From positions 1 through 22,508 of IMG/VR virus record IMGVR_UViG_3300006793_000312: DNA of 22,508 bases, one strand, 5' to 3'. The position numbers and the translations under genes were made by a program. This DNA is from a virus. Positions within the stretch are counted from its first letter, which is position 1, and each line of letters opens with the position of its first letter. This document shows positions 9,169 to 22,240 of the stretch, piece by piece. The notes beneath the pieces were generated by a model. That model had not been told where the DNA came from, ran no database searches, and saw only the letters and a program-made list of their open reading frames with translations.

Positions 9169-9312
9169 ATGATGGCTACTAAAAAAACACCCACTCCTGT
9201 AGTTCCCGCACCTCCATATGGAAGACCTTTAAATAAAGATGAAATAGAATTTGTAAAAGAAAATATAAAAAAACTACAAGAATATGGGCAAAAGAAAAAG
9301 AAAAAGAAATGA
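9169..9312 (+). CDS. Small Pro/Lys-rich protein, first gene of the rightward operon
   Basis: This 47-residue protein begins MMATKKTPTPVVPAPPYGRP, continues with a short charged helix and ends in six lysines. A good ribosome site (AAGGAAAG) directly precedes the tandem ATGs. The stop overlaps the ATG of the following oxygenase (ATGA), so the two are translationally coupled. I do not recognise a family. The dense Pro segment (seven Pro in residues 8-20) beside a 2OG oxygenase makes a substrate or recruitment role conceivable, but that is speculation. The coding evidence is the ribosome site, the coupling, and the fact that it fills the gap exactly. Confidence 0.7.
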   Translation: MMATKKTPTPVVPAPPYGRPLNKDEIEFVKENIKKLQEYGQKKKKKK

Positions 9313-15113: not shown

Positions 15114-15175
15114 GCAATCTTTTTAAAATTGTTTTCTTGACAGCGAATTCATGCTATGAAAGAGGCAGAAAAAGA

Positions 15176-15760
15176 ATGCAATTAGTTAATAATTATTTCA
15201 TTATAGAAAATGCTGTTCCAGACAGATTTTGTAATTATATTCTTGAATATGGAAAAAACTTAAAAGAAAAAGTAGCCACTATTGCAGGTGCTGATGAAAA
15301 ACAAAAAGAAGAATTAGAAAAAACAAGAAAATCGAACGTTGTTTGGTTAACTGAAAAATGGTTATATAGAGAAATACAACCATTAGTTCATGAAGCTAAT
15401 GCACAAGCAGGTTGGAATTTTCAATGGGATAATACAGAGTCATGTCAATTTACAAAGTATGAAGGTTCAAAGAAACAATTTTATCATTGGCACACAGATT
15501 CTGGTGCAGACGTTCTTGATAATCTACCTATGAGAAAAATTTCTGCTACTTTAATTTTGGTAGACAGAGAAAATTATAAAGGCGGTGATTTTGAAATATG
15601 CATTCCACATCCTGAAAAATCAAAAATTATTACTATTGAACTTCGTAAAAGAGGCACAATGATATTTTTTCCTTCTTTTGTTTGGCACAGAGTTACTCCT
15701 GTTACTGAGGGAACAAGATGCTCATTAGTTTGTTGGAATACAGGGAAAAAATTTATATAA
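15176..15760 (+). CDS. 2OG-Fe(II) oxygenase 4, prolyl-4-hydroxylase/PKHD type
   Basis: This 194-residue protein has the P4H-type catalytic layout: N-terminal YFIIENAVPDRFCNYIL; QFTKYEGSKKQFYHWHTDSG with the iron-binding H106-x-D108; a second strand block with KISATLILV and GGDFEICIP; then FFPSFVWHRVTPVTEG with the distal H171 and the 2OG-binding R181 in TRCSLVCW. This is close to the bacterial/phage PKHD hydroxylase pattern, so prolyl or other peptidyl hydroxylation is plausible but unproven. An in-frame TTG at 15137 would add 13 residues unlike the family start, so I chose ATG 15176, with GAGG about 10 nt upstream. It opens the second rightward block; an 18-nt gap follows. Confidence 0.88.
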   Translation: MQLVNNYFIIENAVPDRFCNYILEYGKNLKEKVATIAGADEKQKEELEKTRKSNVVWLTEKWLYREIQPLVHEANAQAGWNFQWDNTESCQFTKYEGSKKQFYHWHTDSGADVLDNLPMRKISATLILVDRENYKGGDFEICIPHPEKSKIITIELRKRGTMIFFPSFVWHRVTPVTEGTRCSLVCWNTGKKFI

Positions 15761-15778: not shown

Positions 15779-16402
15779 ATGAGTTTTCAAAAAAATAAAT
15801 ATGAAATAGTTAAAAAAGCAATTACTAAAGAATTAACTAGTTTTTGTTATGCTTATTTTTTAAACAAAAGAAAAGTTGCAGATTATTTATTTAATTCAAA
15901 ATATATTTCACGTTTTGATCCTACTTGGGGAACGTGGGCCGATGAACAAATACCAAACACATACTCTCACTATGCTGATTTAGTTATGGAAACTTTATTA
16001 GAAAGAGTTCTTCCAAAAATGATACAAACAACAAAACTTAATCTTATTCCTACTTATAGTTATGCTCGAATATATAAATATGGTGATATTTTACATCGAC
16101 ATAAAGATAGACCATCGTGTGAAATATCATGCACTCTTAATTTAGGCGGAGATGAATGGCCTATATATTTAGATCCTACTGGAGAATTTGGTAATAAAGG
16201 TAAAAAGGTTATTCTTAAACAAGGAGATATGTTAGCTTATAGTGGATGTGATTTAGAACATTGGAGAGAAACTTTTAAAGGTCAAGATTGTTGTCAAGTT
16301 TTTTTACATTATAATAATACTGAAGGTGATTTTGAACAAAAAAACATTTATGATAATAGACCTTTTTTAGGTCTACCAGGAGACTTTAAAAATAATGGAT
16401 AA
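15779..16402 (+). CDS. 2OG-Fe(II) oxygenase-like protein 5 (HRHKDRPSCE type)
   Basis: The 207 residues contain PTYSYARIYKYGDILHRHKD with the iron motif H108-x-D110, RPSCEISCTLNLGGDEWPIY, and KQGDMLAYSGCDLEHWRETF with the distal H161. QDCCQVFLHYNN follows, where other oxygenases have the 2OG-binding Arg strand. I recognise this 'HRHKDRPSCEIS...GC-x-LEHWRE...QVFLHY' pattern as a phage and marine-bacterial oxygenase subgroup distinct from the P4H-like ones. AAGGAGA sits 5 nt before the ATG, the best ribosome site in this block, so expression may be high. The substrate is unknown. It overlaps the next gene by 8 nt. Confidence 0.85.
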   Translation: MSFQKNKYEIVKKAITKELTSFCYAYFLNKRKVADYLFNSKYISRFDPTWGTWADEQIPNTYSHYADLVMETLLERVLPKMIQTTKLNLIPTYSYARIYKYGDILHRHKDRPSCEISCTLNLGGDEWPIYLDPTGEFGNKGKKVILKQGDMLAYSGCDLEHWRETFKGQDCCQVFLHYNNTEGDFEQKNIYDNRPFLGLPGDFKNNG

Positions 16403-16727
16403 TTTACAAGAAAAATTTAATTTTTTAAAATCAAGAAAATATGAAAAGTCTAATCACCCTGGGGTAGAAGTTTTTTATGATAAACAAACTTTTTTAAAAA
16501 TAAATAAAAAAACAAAAATTACTTTAACACCAGGAAATGTTTTATTTATAATAAAAAAAGCAATTGGTTTAAAAGAAGGGGCTTTAAAAATTTTAGAAGA
16601 AGCTGAATTACATAATGAAACAAATCAAAATATGTATTGTGTTTTAACAAATTGTTTATTTTCAGAAGAATATACGAACAATAAAATTTTTATAAAAACA
16701 GGTAATAGTGAAAGGGCTTTAATATGA
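16395..16727 (+). CDS. Orphan 110-aa protein inside the oxygenase block
   Basis: I do not recognise a family. The protein is Lys/Asn-rich with no HxD motif, no transmembrane segment and no signal peptide. Visible segments are a charged N-terminus (LQEKFNFLKSRKYEKS), a strand-rich middle (VEVFYDKQTFLKI) and NVLFIIKKAIGLKEGALKIL. It overlaps oxygenase 5 by 8 nt and oxygenase 6 by 4 nt (ATGA), so it is translated with them. Its own ribosome site is poor (AGGAG about 12 nt away). Being locked between oxygenases suggests a partner, substrate or accessory role, but nothing in the sequence proves that. Confidence 0.72.
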   Translation: MDNLQEKFNFLKSRKYEKSNHPGVEVFYDKQTFLKINKKTKITLTPGNVLFIIKKAIGLKEGALKILEEAELHNETNQNMYCVLTNCLFSEEYTNNKIFIKTGNSERALI

Positions 16728-17230
16728 AAGTAATTGATAATTTTTTACCAAATGACATACATCAACAATTCGTTGATTTATTAATGTCAAACGATTTTCC
16801 ATATTATTTTATTGACGGTGTAGCTAACATAAATGGAACGGAAGATGATTTTATATTTTTTCACAATCTTTACGGCAATCCACATAATTTTAATCATTCT
16901 GGTGGAGAGATTGTTAGTAGATATTTTAATATGATAGCAATGCCATTATTAGGTAGATTAAATTTTAACAATTTATTAAGAGCAAGAGTAAATTTGTATA
17001 CAAGAAAACACGAAGGGGTAATTAGTGATTTTCATCAAGATTTAGAGGAAAGACATACTGTTGCTTTATACAATATAAATTCTAATAACGGAGTAACTGT
17101 ATTTAAAACAGGAGAAAAACTTCCTTCGGTTGCAAATCAAATGATTATTTTTGATGGTAAATTAGATCATGCAGTAATACCTCAAACAGATACGAAGTTA
17201 AGAGTAAACATTAATTTAAATATTTTATGA
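16724..17230 (+). CDS. 2OG-Fe(II) oxygenase-like protein 6, tandem paralogue A
   Basis: This 168-residue compact oxygenase is of a type common in cyanophages: start MKVIDNFLPNDIHQQF, NDFPYYFIDG in the N-terminal part, LLRARVNLYTR strand, iron motif SDFHQDLEE (H104, D106), VALYNINSNNGVTVF, then VANQMIIFDGKLDHAVIPQTD with distal H149 and R160 for 2OG. All expected catalytic residues are present. AAAGGG lies 7 nt before the ATG, so this first array member can be initiated independently; later members lack such a site. It overlaps its neighbours by 4 nt on both sides. Substrate unknown; soluble, cytoplasmic by sequence. Confidence 0.86.
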   Translation: MKVIDNFLPNDIHQQFVDLLMSNDFPYYFIDGVANINGTEDDFIFFHNLYGNPHNFNHSGGEIVSRYFNMIAMPLLGRLNFNNLLRARVNLYTRKHEGVISDFHQDLEERHTVALYNINSNNGVTVFKTGEKLPSVANQMIIFDGKLDHAVIPQTDTKLRVNINLNIL

Positions 17231-17739
17231 AAGTAATTAATAATTTTTTACCTGATGAAATACATCAACAGTTTGTTGATTTGTTAATGTCAAATGATTT
17301 TCCATATTTTTACATAGATGGTTTATCTCACACAGACGGAACTGAGGATGATTTTCACTTTCTTCATAATCTTTACGGCAATCCACACAATTTTGATCAT
17401 TCAGGGGGAGAGATTGTTAGTAGATATTTTAATCGTTTAATCATGCCTATATTAGGAAGACTTCCTCTTACTTTTAATAATTTATTAAGAGCAAGAGTAA
17501 ATTTATTAACAAGAGCCAAGAACCCAATAATAAGTAATTTTCATAGAGATTTAGAAGATAAACATACAGTTGCATTATATTATTTAAATTCAAACAATGG
17601 TGAAACTGTTTTTAAAACAGGCGAAAAAGTTCCTTCAGTTGCAAACCAAATGCTTATTTTTGATGGTCATATGGACCATGCTGTTATTCCACAAACAGAT
17701 GAAAAAGTAAGGGTTAATATTAATTTAAATTTATCATGA
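17227..17739 (+). CDS. 2OG-Fe(II) oxygenase-like protein 7, tandem paralogue B
   Basis: The 170 residues are clearly paralogous to its two neighbours along the whole length. Catalytic set: SNFHRDLED (H106, D108), DGHMDHAVIPQTD (H151) and R162. Differences from A and C are a two-residue insertion (LPLTFNN against LNFNN) and a changed loop before the iron motif (LLTRAKNPI against LYTRKHE), which lies where a substrate-specificity loop could be. No ribosome site is visible before the ATG; translation probably depends on reinitiation through the ATGA overlap with A. Near-identical DNA blocks are shared alternately with A and C. Confidence 0.86.
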   Translation: MKVINNFLPDEIHQQFVDLLMSNDFPYFYIDGLSHTDGTEDDFHFLHNLYGNPHNFDHSGGEIVSRYFNRLIMPILGRLPLTFNNLLRARVNLLTRAKNPIISNFHRDLEDKHTVALYYLNSNNGETVFKTGEKVPSVANQMLIFDGHMDHAVIPQTDEKVRVNINLNLS

Positions 17740-18257
17740 AAGTAATTGATAATTTTTTACCTAATGAAATACACCAACAGTTTGTTGATTTGTTAATGTC
17801 AAATGATTTTCCATATTATTATATTGATGGAAATAATTTTTTATTAACTAATACAGATAATAAAGCTGAAGATGATTTTTTATTTTTTCATAACCTCTAT
17901 GGTAATCCACACAATTTTAATCATACAGGAGGAGAAATAATAAGTAAGTATTTTAATATGTTAGTAATGCCTTTATTAGGTAAATTAAATTTTAACAATC
18001 TACTAAGAGCAAGAATAAATTTATACACAAGAAAACATGAGGCAATTATGAGTAATATGCACAGAGATATAGAAGAAGAACATACCGTTGCTTTGTATTA
18101 TTTAAATTCTAATAACGGAGTAACTGTATTTAGAGAAGGTAAAAGAGTACCCTCAGTGGCAAACCAAATGCTTATTTTTGATGGTAAATTATACCATGCT
18201 GTTATTCCACAGACAGATAAAAAAATAAGAATAAACATAAACCTAAATTTATCATGA
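17736..18257 (+). CDS. 2OG-Fe(II) oxygenase-like protein 8, tandem paralogue C
   Basis: The 173 residues form the third close paralogue. Catalytic set: SNMHRDIEE (H109, D111), DGKLYHAVIPQTD (H154) and R165. It differs by a longer, Asn/Thr-rich loop at residues 33-45 (NNFLLTNTDNKAED) where A and B have a shorter one, so the length variation lies in the N-terminal lid region while the catalytic core is kept. It has no ribosome site of its own and is coupled to B by ATGA. The next gene begins with the same ATGA overlap. Confidence 0.86.
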   Translation: MKVIDNFLPNEIHQQFVDLLMSNDFPYYYIDGNNFLLTNTDNKAEDDFLFFHNLYGNPHNFNHTGGEIISKYFNMLVMPLLGKLNFNNLLRARINLYTRKHEAIMSNMHRDIEEEHTVALYYLNSNNGVTVFREGKRVPSVANQMLIFDGKLYHAVIPQTDKKIRININLNLS

Positions 18258-18787
18258 AGAAGAAAACGCAATACAAAATATTTGACAATTTTTTAGATCA
18301 AAAAACTTTTTTGATGATTCAAGAATTAGTAATGTCTCCCGAACTACCTTTTTTTTATAATGCTATTTTAAATTATGAACAAGGAGACGATTATGAAAAG
18401 CATAAATATGATTATTATTTTACGCACCTTGCATATAAAAACGACAGAGATAATTTAGTAAAAGGGGGGAGACAAAGTGTTTATTTAGAAAATTTTATGC
18501 CAATAGTAGAGAAGCTTAGTGTTTCTTCTTTATTAAGAATTAAAGTTAATTTTTATCCACGAACAGAAGAAATGAAAATACATGCTGCTCATACAGACTA
18601 CCCTTTTGATCACAACGGTGCACTATTTTATATTAACACTTGTGATGGTTATACGGTGTTAGAAGACGGAACAAAAATTGAAAGCATTGCAAACAGAGTT
18701 TTGGTTTTTAATGGTGGTTCTCTACATTCATCAACTTCTTGCACAAATGCACAAGGTAGATTTAATGTTAATTTTAATTACTTTTAA
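18254..18787 (+). CDS. 2OG-Fe(II) oxygenase-like protein 9, diverged array member
   Basis: The 177 residues share the architecture of A-C with low identity: YKIFDNFLDQKTF, LPFFYNAILN, SLLRIKVNFYPRTEE, iron motif HAAHTDYPF (H113, D115), ALFYINTCDGYTVLEDG, IANRVLVFNGGSLHSSTS (H158) and GRFNVNFNYF (R169). It is closer than A-C to the cyanophage form ('LLRIK-x-N-x-YPRT...HTD...YINT-x-x-GYT...IANR...F...H-x-x-T-x-C'). So it is probably an older or separately acquired member, not part of the recent triplication. It is coupled by ATGA to C. Its TAA abuts the stop of the leftward oxygenase 10 with no gap. Confidence 0.86.
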   Translation: MKKKTQYKIFDNFLDQKTFLMIQELVMSPELPFFYNAILNYEQGDDYEKHKYDYYFTHLAYKNDRDNLVKGGRQSVYLENFMPIVEKLSVSSLLRIKVNFYPRTEEMKIHAAHTDYPFDHNGALFYINTCDGYTVLEDGTKIESIANRVLVFNGGSLHSSTSCTNAQGRFNVNFNYF

Positions 18788-19381
18788 TTATTCTCCAGGA
18801 TAAGCATTTTGCCAACGCATAGATAAACCAACAAAAGGTTTTTTATTTTTATTTTGTGTAATGCTATGACGTAAGTAAGAAGGAAACATAACAAATCTTC
18901 CTTTTTTAAAAGTAACTGCGTATCTTCTTTTTTTATGTCTTCCATATTCATGTTCAAATATTATTTCACATGGTTTATCTCCGGGATCTAAACAAAAAAC
19001 TAAAGACATGTCAGGAGACTCTTCATAATCCCAATCATTAATATGATGATGTGATCCAATACTTTCATTATGATTTAAATAAATACCATACAAAGAATTT
19101 ATCTTTATAGGTTGCTCACATTCATAACGATAGTTATCTCTTATATAGTCAACCAACCAAGTTATGTGTTGTAAAGCATCTAATTTGTAATAATTATTAT
19201 CAGAGTACCAATGTTCAGGTCTAACTCTTAGATTTTGTTTTTTACTTTTTTTAACATGATTACACATCATATCATTGTCTATTAAAAGTTTTTTTGAAAG
19301 TTGATGAACAATTACAAATTCCTCTGAAAGAACTTTCTTATCAAATAATTTGTATGTAGAAAAATTTAAATGTTTATCCAC
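18788..19381 (-). CDS. 2OG-Fe(II) oxygenase-like protein 10, GTG start, in the tail-fibre operon
   Basis: This 197-residue protein carries the oxygenase 1-3 type layout: YGIYLNHNESIGSHHHINDWD (H111-H113 and D116), SLVFCLDPGD, GRFVMFPSYLRHSITQN (H172), then KPFVGLSMRW. At the last block the Arg normally followed by -x-S-[IV]-S is replaced by Lys/Pro (residues 180-182), so 2OG binding may be altered or use Lys. It starts at GTG 19381, 16 nt inside the preceding gene, with no visible ribosome site. It is the last gene of the leftward fibre operon, which links it in expression to the adhesins rather than to oxygenases 4-9. Confidence 0.7.
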   Translation of the reverse strand: MDKHLNFSTYKLFDKKVLSEEFVIVHQLSKKLLIDNDMMCNHVKKSKKQNLRVRPEHWYSDNNYYKLDALQHITWLVDYIRDNYRYECEQPIKINSLYGIYLNHNESIGSHHHINDWDYEESPDMSLVFCLDPGDKPCEIIFEHEYGRHKKRRYAVTFKKGRFVMFPSYLRHSITQNKNKKPFVGLSMRWQNAYPGE

Positions 19382-19875
19382 GAAGAATTACTAGCATCCC
19401 ATTTAACTTGAGTGCTGTTATCATCTGGATCAACACTTAACCATCTTGTATTAGTTTCATCCCATTGTATAACATAAGGCAAATCACCTTTTAATGTTAC
19501 TGATGGGAAAGCCACGGGGGGATCATACAAGCAAGTTGTGTTATTTAATGTCCATGATGAAAAAGGTTGAGGTTCTACAAAAGCGTCTTTTCCTGAATCA
19601 TATATCCAACCTATACCAGGAAAATTTTTTCTATATGCTTTTGATTGGTCACTTGCTGCATTTGTAAAATTACCATCGCTATCAACATCATACTTTACCC
19701 CTGCATGTGTGCTTCGTGAACATTTTTTCCAATTTGTCCATCCATGCACATCTGTTAAAAAAGCAACTCCAGTTGCTTCATCTTCAACATTAGAATCATT
19801 TGTTGTATCTGCGTCAGCAACAACTGAAACGCTGAGAACTACATTAGAATCATTTAATTTTGCAAAGTGTGCCAT
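19366..19875 (-). CDS. MAHFAKL-type marine-phage protein, probable tail-associated
   Basis: The 169 residues begin MAHFAKLNDSNVVLSVSVV and contain KAYRKNFPGIGWIYDSGKDAF, then PQPFSSWTLNNTTCLYDPP, and near the end YVIQWDETNTRWL. I recognise this as a protein common in marine phages: 'MAHFAKLD-x-NNVV...RKN-x-x-GIG-x-x-YD...DAF-x-x-PQP-x-x-SW-x-L...C-x-W-x-P-P...W-x-E...W'. It generally sits beside fibre genes, and its molecular role is not established. Its ATG overlaps the adhesin stop (TAATG). The C-terminus repeats W-D-x-S/T-N motifs (WDETN, WDASN). The last 16 nt overlap oxygenase 10. Confidence 0.85.
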   Translation of the reverse strand: MAHFAKLNDSNVVLSVSVVADADTTNDSNVEDEATGVAFLTDVHGWTNWKKCSRSTHAGVKYDVDSDGNFTNAASDQSKAYRKNFPGIGWIYDSGKDAFVEPQPFSSWTLNNTTCLYDPPVAFPSVTLKGDLPYVIQWDETNTRWLSVDPDDNSTQVKWDASNSSWINI

Positions 19876-20918
19876 TATTGAAACTTATACCTTACTACTA
19901 CTAGCCCTGAACCGCCGCCAGAGCCACCATTTCTTAAACCTCCAGCAGCACCACTTCCACCGCCAGTATTAGCACTTCCAGCTTGTCCAGCGACTGGTTG
20001 ACTTCCACCGTCACCGCCTCCTCCGTCACCGCCAGGAGCTTCAGGTTTTCCGCCTGGGCCTGGTCTAAAAAAACCACCACCGCCGCCGCCTGCGTATGTC
20101 ACAGGAGAACCTGGTATAGAAGTTGCTGTTCCATTACCACCAACACCTGCAGGGCCACCAGAAGTTCCATGACCGCCAGCTTGACTAGCACCGCCACCGC
20201 CACCACCCATTTGTGTTCCACCCGCTGATACAGCGTGACCGCCAGGATTACCTTGAGGGGGAGATACAGGAGGAGTATTTCCAGCACCATCAGCTGTACT
20301 CGGAGAACTGTTTGCAGCACCAGCACCACCGCCAGAGCCACCACTTAATCCTTGAGCACCACCATATTGAGGTTCTAAAGCACCACCTCCACCACCACCT
20401 TCAGAGGTAATAGAAGAAAAAACTGAATTTGAACCATCTTGACCTTTTGTTGTATATCTAGCACTTGGAGCGCCAGCAGCACCACCACCTACCGTTATAG
20501 GATAACCTTGAGCAGAAACAGGAAGACCACCAGTAGCAGGAGAAGGATAGTTTACTCTAAATCCTCCAGCGCCACCACCGCCACCATATCCAGAGCCACC
20601 AGAGCCGCCTCCAGCAACAACTAAATATTCTACTGTGTTTGATCCCGCAGCATTACCTGCGCCTTGTACTGTAAAAGTAGCATCTGAAGTAAAAGTGTGA
20701 ACTTTATAATCTCCTTGTGTAGCAATACTTCCGCCAGTAGCTTGAATAAATTGTGCATTTGATTTTCCTTGTAAATCTGCCATTGCAATATCGCCAGAAG
20801 GTTGATCGGCCAACGTTCTTACAGCCGTAGCACCCATATTAATGGTAGTAGAAGAAGGGGAAATGTCTAATTCTGTATTAACTTGGGATAAGGATATAGC
20901 ACCTGTAGGTAAGGTCAT
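19875..20918 (-). CDS. Glycine-rich tail fibre/adhesin
   Basis: The 347 residues begin with the phage fibre start PTGAISLSQVNTELD (residues 4-18). Then comes ATGGSIATQGDYKVHTFTSD and VEYLVVAGGG, the entry to the 'LVVAGGG' glycine-rich domain that fills residues ~100-335 with runs of four to six Gly broken by Ser, Ala, Pro and Asn. It closes with GSGLVVVRYKF. The domain is typical of phage and bacterial surface fibres and may form packed polyglycine II helices, as known for some phage adhesins. A host-recognition role is likely. AGGAG lies 7 nt before the ATG, at the very end of the upstream fibre gene. Confidence 0.88.
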   Translation of the reverse strand: MTLPTGAISLSQVNTELDISPSSTTINMGATAVRTLADQPSGDIAMADLQGKSNAQFIQATGGSIATQGDYKVHTFTSDATFTVQGAGNAAGSNTVEYLVVAGGGSGGSGYGGGGGAGGFRVNYPSPATGGLPVSAQGYPITVGGGAAGAPSARYTTKGQDGSNSVFSSITSEGGGGGGALEPQYGGAQGLSGGSGGGAGAANSSPSTADGAGNTPPVSPPQGNPGGHAVSAGGTQMGGGGGGASQAGGHGTSGGPAGVGGNGTATSIPGSPVTYAGGGGGGFFRPGPGGKPEAPGGDGGGGDGGSQPVAGQAGSANTGGGSGAAGGLRNGGSGGGSGLVVVRYKFQ

Positions 20919-20920
20919 TT

Positions 20921-22240
20921 TTAACTCCTATTCTTTAGTTCATCAATTTCCGTTTTAAGTTGTTTTATTGATTCAATTAAAACAGAAGTTAGTTTTCCAT
21001 AATCAACTGATTTTGTTTTAATATCATCATCCGCAGTTATAACAACTTGTGGTAAAATCTCTTCCATGTCTTGAGCTAATACTCCAATTTGTTCTTTAGC
21101 ATCTTGTATATCATTTCTTTTATAGTAAACACCTTGCATTTTTATTACCTTAGATAAAGCATCATCAATATTTTTTATGTCTGTTTTTAATCTTTTATCA
21201 GAGAAAGCAGTAACATCATTATTGAAAGTAGCCGCACCAGCACCTGACATATCAAGAGTTAGTGCTGTAACACCAGAGCCACCATCATTACCTTTAAAAA
21301 TCATGTCTTTGTCAGAAACTTTTGATTCAATAACTAAATCACTTGAACTATTAGTAATATGACCAATAGCTGTTCCACCAGATGAGAAAATTACATCATT
21401 GCCAGCTGCATCTAAGATTATATCGCCCGCAACATCTAAAGTTAAATCACCAGATGATAAATCTATTTCTGTTCCATCAATTGTAATATTGTCAATAGTA
21501 ACACCTGAGTCTGCATCTACGACATCACCAAATGTAGCTCCTGCATTAAATACAGCTTTACCTGCATCGGACATATCTAATTGTAATGCTGTAATAGCAC
21601 CTCCGCCATCATCACCTTTAAATAAAATATCTTTATCTTGTACAGCTGAAGTAATTACAAAATCACTTGATGAATTTGTTAAATTTGCAACGTCAGTATT
21701 ACCAATTTTTAAATCAATTTGGTCATCGGTGTCAGCAGTTATAGATGTATCTGCATCAGCGTCTAGTATTAATTCTTGACCTTGAAGGTCTATTGATCCT
21801 GCCAAAGAAAAAACATCATACCAGTTTGTGCCGTCTGTTGAAACAAGACGAGTTGTGCCGTTAGCTATTGAAAGTGTGTTACCTGAAGCACCTAATCTGC
21901 AAGTCATTGCGTAAGGACCAGAAGATCCTGAATCAGTCGTTGCGTTTGTAATTAAATAAACTTTTTGTGTAGCTGGGAATTGAGCTATTCTTACTGCACC
22001 ATGTGCACCCGTTAATCTTATGTGAGCATTTCTTGCTTGGTTATTTGCTTGTGATTGTGGACCATCAGCGTTTGTAAGTGTTGTTACAGCAGCATCGCCA
22101 CACGCAACATTAACTACACCAGCTATGGAAAATTCTAAAGACTGAGAAAAGTTGTTGTTTGTAATAGTTCCCCAAGTACCAGAATTTGCTCCTGAAGCTT
22201 GAAGCTCTATCCTTAAACTTGTTGAATATGTCGAACTCAT
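20921..22240 (-). CDS. Tail fibre with C-terminal S74 intramolecular chaperone
   Basis: The 439 residues comprise an N-terminal attachment-type module (STYSTSLRIELQASGANSGT...WG), a beta shaft with ILDADADTSITADTDDQIDL (about 158-177), two ~51-residue repeats (182-232 and 290-340) and a C-terminal Peptidase_S74 domain (about 345-436). The S74 dyad is visible as S347-D-K-R-L-K352, Ser and Lys five apart as in the endosialidase chaperones. GVLAQDMEEILPQVV and a final coiled coil (ESIKQLKTEIDELKNR) follow. Autocleavage before Ser347 would release the chaperone after trimerisation. AGGAGA lies about 8 nt before the ATG. The adhesin gene follows after 2 nt. Confidence 0.92.
   Translation of the reverse strand: MSSTYSTSLRIELQASGANSGTWGTITNNNFSQSLEFSIAGVVNVACGDAAVTTLTNADGPQSQANNQARNAHIRLTGAHGAVRIAQFPATQKVYLITNATTDSGSSGPYAMTCRLGASGNTLSIANGTTRLVSTDGTNWYDVFSLAGSIDLQGQELILDADADTSITADTDDQIDLKIGNTDVANLTNSSSDFVITSAVQDKDILFKGDDGGGAITALQLDMSDAGKAVFNAGATFGDVVDADSGVTIDNITIDGTEIDLSSGDLTLDVAGDIILDAAGNDVIFSSGGTAIGHITNSSSDLVIESKVSDKDMIFKGNDGGSGVTALTLDMSGAGAATFNNDVTAFSDKRLKTDIKNIDDALSKVIKMQGVYYKRNDIQDAKEQIGVLAQDMEEILPQVVITADDDIKTKSVDYGKLTSVLIESIKQLKTEIDELKNRS
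21221..21373 (-). repeat. Fibre shaft repeat, copy 2
   Basis: Codes residues 290-340 (around TNSSSDLVIESKVSDKDMIF), the second copy of the 51-residue shaft unit, placed just before the S74 cleavage Ser347. Confidence 0.75.
21545..21697 (-). repeat. Fibre shaft repeat, copy 1
   Basis: Codes residues 182-232 (around TNSSSDFVITSAVQDKDILF), matching copy 2 in the pattern 'LTNSSSD-x-VI-x-S-x-V-x-DKD-x-x-FKG-x-DGG...TAL-x-LDMS-x-AG-x-A-x-FN'. Confidence 0.75.

Follow-up and report, generated by a model that had tools for sequence, protein, structure and literature searches.

A tandem array of three diverged 2OG/Fe(II) oxygenase-like genes at a site of variable copy number in a marine phage

Organization and setting of the array

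The DNA analysed here is the 22,508-base virus record IMGVR_UViG_3300006793_000312, and we refer to this whole stretch as the window. Its source is a marine phage akin to the HTVC023P-type pelagiphages, and the host is probably a SAR11 bacterium. Three head-to-tail open reading frames, A, B and C, lie within 16724-18257 (Table 1). The first-pass annotation had described them as paralogues joined by ATGA overlaps, and the coordinates, the overlaps and the pairwise protein identities (77, 78 and 76%) agree with that description. The tandem run of three is real, but it does not stand alone: a fourth family member, D, ~33% identical to A, B and C at the protein level, follows directly behind. All of A-D matched the PHROG_274 profile over its full length (E 4e-35 to 5e-44). 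In the tree, D clusters with homologues from the related phages L106 and L108, in a different clade, which rules out its descent from the duplication that gave A, B and C. Gene U, on the other side, had no match in family profile searches.

An assembly artefact is unlikely, as two contigs carry the full array (L006 and L007, 99.965% identical to the window across 8504 bases) and a third matches part of it. This third contig, L005, is the same phage by identity (99.96% over 5103 bases) and contains A, B and no more than the beginning of C; the comparison stops at window position 17826, inside C.

Table 1. Genes and sequence features of the array and its surroundings, in window coordinates
Feature	Position	Strand	Remarks
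2OG-Fe(II) oxygenase	15137..15760	+	PF13640, phrog_61
phrog_2954 gene	15779..16402	+	labelled 'ferrochelatase'; model resembles another 2OG oxygenase
Gene U	16395..16727	+	110 aa; left-hand neighbour of the array
ATGA overlap U-A	16724..16727	+	stop/start overlap, from sequence
Oxygenase A	16724..17230	+	168 aa; phrog_274 family, HxD...H...R intact
Variable loop of A	16820..16849	+	residues 33-42; flanking strands 28-31 and 43-51
ATGA overlap A-B	17227..17230	+	stop/start overlap, from sequence
Oxygenase B	17227..17739	+	170 aa; orthologue-like copies E1 (L008) and G1 (L089)
C-like 5' segment of B	17227..17307	+	6/90 differences to C over codons 1-30
Variable loop of B	17323..17352	+	residues 33-42
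Two-codon insertion P80-L81	17464..17469	+	B-type copies; loop after helix 68-76
ATGA overlap B-C	17736..17739	+	stop/start overlap, from sequence
Oxygenase C	17736..18257	+	173 aa; clusters with E2 of L008
Variable loop of C	17832..17876	+	longer by 5 residues
ATGA overlap C-D	18254..18257	+	stop/start overlap, from sequence
Oxygenase D	18254..18787	+	177 aa; family member from a separate, older clade; flanks the array on the right
2OG-Fe(II) oxygenase-like gene	18788..19381	-	phrog_81; PF13759 slightly below cut-off
Glycine-rich protein	19875..20918	-	PF21722
Tail fibre protein	20921..22240	-	Peptidase_S74 chaperone domain

The array sits in an accessory region beside tail fibre genes, and the window holds further 2OG-type genes at 9309, 10235, 13999, 15137 and 18788. 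Two relatives carry an additional 2OG-type gene between the orthologues of the 15137 and 15779 genes (L008:1993-2550, which has a PF13759 match, and L089:3984-4547) that is absent from the window. Several 2OG genes with a phrog_2954 'ferrochelatase' partner near the tail genes are also found in HTVC023P-type pelagiphages. A virion protein of the window is 29.6-31.7% identical to those of HTVC027P and 023Pt_psg01 over 49-59% of its length, and 023Pt_psg01 carries a gene of phrog_274 type at the equivalent place. In the HTVC023P-type phages, eight 2OG genes, distinct and not orthologous to one another, lie close together without being adjacent (PMC9599517), whereas the three paralogues of the window are of one type, stand in direct tandem and differ in number between relatives. 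Syn19 also differs, in that its two phrog_274-type copies are near each other but non-adjacent. Tandem pairs in other phages are 65% (L200), 58% (L060), 46% (L054) and 42% (L074) identical. A literature search on tandem duplication, with narrow terms, returned nothing relevant.

The first copy had been credited with the only good ribosome site. B and C, and likewise D, have no Shine-Dalgarno match, as that claim implied; the element of A (AAAGG, -4.7 kcal/mol), however, is moderate and weaker than those of many genes in the window. In L008 and L089 the element of the first copy is weaker still (-1.6 and -2.3). The ATGA overlaps would allow coupled re-initiation along the array.

Catalytic core, predicted fold and family labels

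The three copies had been described as keeping all predicted catalytic residues, and H104, D106, H149 and R160 are indeed invariant across A, B, C and the copies found in two relatives. The family alignment of 88 rows had D106 in 88, H104 in 86 and H149 in 87, and position 160 held R in 85 and K in 3. The array genes carry the hallmarks of the 2OG-Fe(II) superfamily, namely the HxD...H triad, an Arg/Lys for the 2OG carboxylate and, in the model of A, a double-stranded beta-helix (DSBH). Two family members elsewhere no longer have all the iron ligands in the alignment (L054:1199-1663, DDHR; L097:5808-6296, QDYR) and are possibly inactive forms.

The structure of A was predicted with a pLDDT of 93.3, falling to ~70 in blocks 31-40 and 51-60. 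The best PDB fold matches listed were 2OG oxygenases (among them PHD2, P. putida P4H, PiuC, 6n1f and vCPH; Z 13.7-15.6), and 7v4f, a hydroxylase of nucleoside antibiotic biosynthesis, was also among the matches. The loop order of A is that of the prolyl hydroxylase finger loop and the fold is similar, but PiuC and others tie. PHD2 and P. putida P4H resemble the predicted A in fold (Z 14.7 and 14.1) and differ from it in sequence (14-18% identity in the structural alignments). A family-profile search of PDB sequences gave only four matches, all weak and all to N6-methyladenine demethylases (best E 0.13); neither PHD2 nor P4H was listed at E up to 10. By residue conservation and modelling, A, B and C are paralogous 2OG/Fe(II) oxygenases of predicted prolyl-hydroxylase-like DSBH fold and putative catalytic activity.

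Differences among the copies are concentrated, as the first-pass annotation had noted, in two loops, 33-45 (with a 5-residue insertion in C) and 94-103. Structure models had been proposed as a check on whether the variable loops border the active-site mouth. In the A model, by element order and aligned range, loop 33-45 occupies the position of the PHD2 beta2/beta3 loop; this agreement with the substrate-loop place of PHD2 is one of topology. A flexible loop occupies this place in both, and that of PHD2 governs substrate selectivity (PMC5007464). By this topology, loop 33-45 is predicted to grip the substrate.

The closest named family, PHROG_274/T4-GC_100, is called 'denV' in cyanophages and HTVC008M. 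The array genes match its profile, and the best match of A in the phage collection, in HTVC008M, is 44.6% identical. Of 173 phage records matched by tblastn with A, five were checked; together they contain six proteins of phrog_274 type that bear the 'DNA endonuclease V' label, and 6/6 of these proteins share the HxD...H...R motif of the array genes. Records bearing the 'DNA endonuclease V / denV' label are L190, L191, L248, L249 and L250. Comparison of 87 family members with Pfam at E 0.01 gave no nuclease family, and 34 of the 87 matched 2OG-FeII_Oxy_3. The 'DNA endonuclease V' (denV) label on phrog_274 thus looks wrong, the conserved residues and models pointing to a 2OG oxygenase-like family.

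More tentatively, the 'ferrochelatase' label on phrog_2954 also appears mistaken, since the protein models as a 2OG oxygenase. The predicted structure of the protein at 15779 (pLDDT 81) had listed fold matches that were largely 2OG oxygenases, H108, D110 and H161 are unchanged across 28 aligned sequences, and none of six phrog_2954 members had a ferrochelatase match in Pfam. The gene has been treated as a partner of the oxygenases in pelagiphages (PMC9599517) and in marine viral communities (PMC11561400). No paper on either relabelling came up in literature searches with narrow terms; the one paper returned for endonuclease V in cyanophages was on an Aeromonas phage. If we are right, two widely copied labels need correcting.

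Age, exchange and copy number

Synonymous divergence (dS), dN/dS and the shuffling tests were computed with our own NG86 and run-length scripts. The triplication had been called recent, a description that the divergence contradicts: dS among the copies is 0.73 (A-B), 0.93 (A-C) and 0.67 (B-C), far above the 0.11 and 0.12 that separate D from its orthologues in two near relatives, and the copies are old.

The three copies of the window together with E1, E2 and G1 form one clade (100/100) with the topology ((A,(C,E2)),(B,(E1,G1))), which defines two types, A/C/E2 and B/E1/G1. B does not belong to its type along its whole length. Towards the 3' end it hardly differs from E1, whereas its 5' end is C-like; over codons 1-30, B differs from C at 6/90 sites but from its counterparts E1 and G1 at 18/90 and 16/90. 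A run of identical variable sites shared by B and C at codons 15-27 had P 0.0004 (5000 shuffles; 15 pairs tested), and codons 1-30 differed from the remainder of the B/C comparison with a Fisher value of 9e-5. On these comparisons B is chimaeric, its C-like 5' end apparently introduced by gene conversion. Between B and E1, dN/dS is 0.71, with the differences concentrated in the 5' part.

Among A, B and C, dN/dS is 0.13-0.25. This overall purifying selection, and the absence of any broken copy in the relatives examined, support the earlier view that selection keeps the copies intact. Nor did dN/dS by region approach 1 across whole copies, the outcome that would have signalled relaxation: pooled over non-independent pairs, it reached 0.86 only in loop 33-45 and was 0.50 in loop 94-103 and 0.17-0.25 elsewhere. 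For a value near 0.9 in one short loop, relaxed constraint fits as well as diversification.

We anchored the site in relatives on D, U and the 15779 gene; few close relatives were found for the comparison. The window, L006 and L007 each have three copies between U and D. L008/L087 has two, L088 and L089 have a single copy each, and L106 and L108 have none, a D homologue directly following U there. In L105 (5696-7168) and L107 (6334-7806), a 491-aa gene that matches no window protein occupies the place of the array. Random copy numbers accompanied by broken copies had been named as the pattern that would speak against selection; copy number does vary (0, 1, 2, 3), but no broken copy was seen at the U-D site in the relatives' contigs examined.

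Retention of the copies and candidate substrates

The reading we favour, and hold to be probable with some reservation, is that the array is an old, recombining oxygenase cassette, acquired and shed among close relatives, whose copies appear functional and have diversified in substrate recognition. A common ancestor would have split into the B type and the A/C/E2 type well before divergence from the near relatives. The U-D block would then have come to hold one, two or three copies among carriers, being absent from more distant relatives, and segments would have been exchanged between copies within it. Purifying selection would keep each copy functional while the putative substrate loops differ, a combination that points to different substrates, or forms of one, rather than to dosage alone. 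Specialisation of this kind, with A, B and C acting on different substrates or on different forms of one, is the most likely role of the copies.

The tandem might instead have been built by import, with divergent alleles of one locus in related phages joined by homologous recombination. Recombination at the locus is indicated, and E2 is a close orthologue of neither A nor C, its distances to C (dS 0.79) and to A (0.60) being comparable to that between these two. The copies also differ between the window and L008 despite flanking blocks that are 93-98% DNA-identical outside the array region. We nevertheless regard import as a minority possibility, as all six copies fall in a single clade and no phage with an A- or C-type copy alone was found in the scans, thin as the sampling was. 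That multiple copies are kept to supply more of one enzyme activity seems unlikely. The conserved catalytic residues and most of the sequence in every copy, under strong overall purifying selection, are what dosage would predict, but about a quarter of the residues differ, the changes are gathered in loops, the downstream copies lack a Shine-Dalgarno match and relatives keep one copy or none. Less likely still is drift, in which copy number wanders by unequal crossover and selection needs one copy only; 0-3 copies at the same site are consistent with it, whereas the lack of broken copies in the relatives examined, the low dN/dS between old copies and the nearly unchanged three-copy form in other contigs speak against it.

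For the substrates of the favoured cassette, a clue comes from SAR11 bacteria. A genome scan found five SAR11 loci with a family member. The family gene lies between lpxA and lpxI at L243 (5001-5486), L244 and L245, to which genome searches added L256 and L258; the members at L254, L255, L257 and L246/L247 lie beside unrelated genes, and no lipid A link was found for locus L246. The LpxA proteins of the lpxA-lpxI loci share 53-59% identity with the L243 protein, or 93% in the case of its close sister L244, so that four diverged SAR11 lineages share the placement of an oxygenase between lpxA and lpxI. A sample of 30 SAR11 loci had 24 with lpxI directly behind lpxA. All seven aligned SAR11 members keep the H, D, H and R residues; those of the lipid A operon share 33-38% identity with A and fall in a different part of the tree. 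This operon placement suggests a role in lipid A.

A known dioxygenase that acts on lipid A is LpxO (PMC6002686). The present family differs from it in sequence: PF05118, the family of LpxO, matched 1 of 87 family members (E 1.8e-4) and none of A-C. Because SAR11 relatives occupy the lipid A operon, host lipid A/LPS is our leading guess for the substrate, a tentative one, and a host or phage protein comes next. A protein substrate, such as a phage fibre or a host translation factor, would be hydroxylated in the manner of P4H/PHD; we consider this candidate doubtful. EF-Tu-bound P. putida P4H and a chlorella virus collagen P4H are among the fold matches, and the glycine-rich protein and S74 tail fibre are close by in the window; PiuC and 7v4f match as well, however, so that no substrate is singled out by the fold, and the HTVC008M homologue has tail completion and uvsY genes, not fibre genes, as its neighbours.

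Taken to its full extent, the lipid A guess would make the array a set of enzymes that alter host lipid A/LPS, with copies specialised by swaps of substrate loops and the surface of the infected SAR11 cell changed. We think this combined picture improbable as it stands; if true, the changed surface could, for example, exclude competing phages. The SAR11 lipid A operon gives a first concrete candidate for a substrate. Genes for 2OG oxygenases are common in marine phages, and paralogues that differ mainly in predicted substrate loops offer a natural comparison for substrate finding. One further SAR11 family member, at locus L259 (G047), was reported with a TAA within the match.
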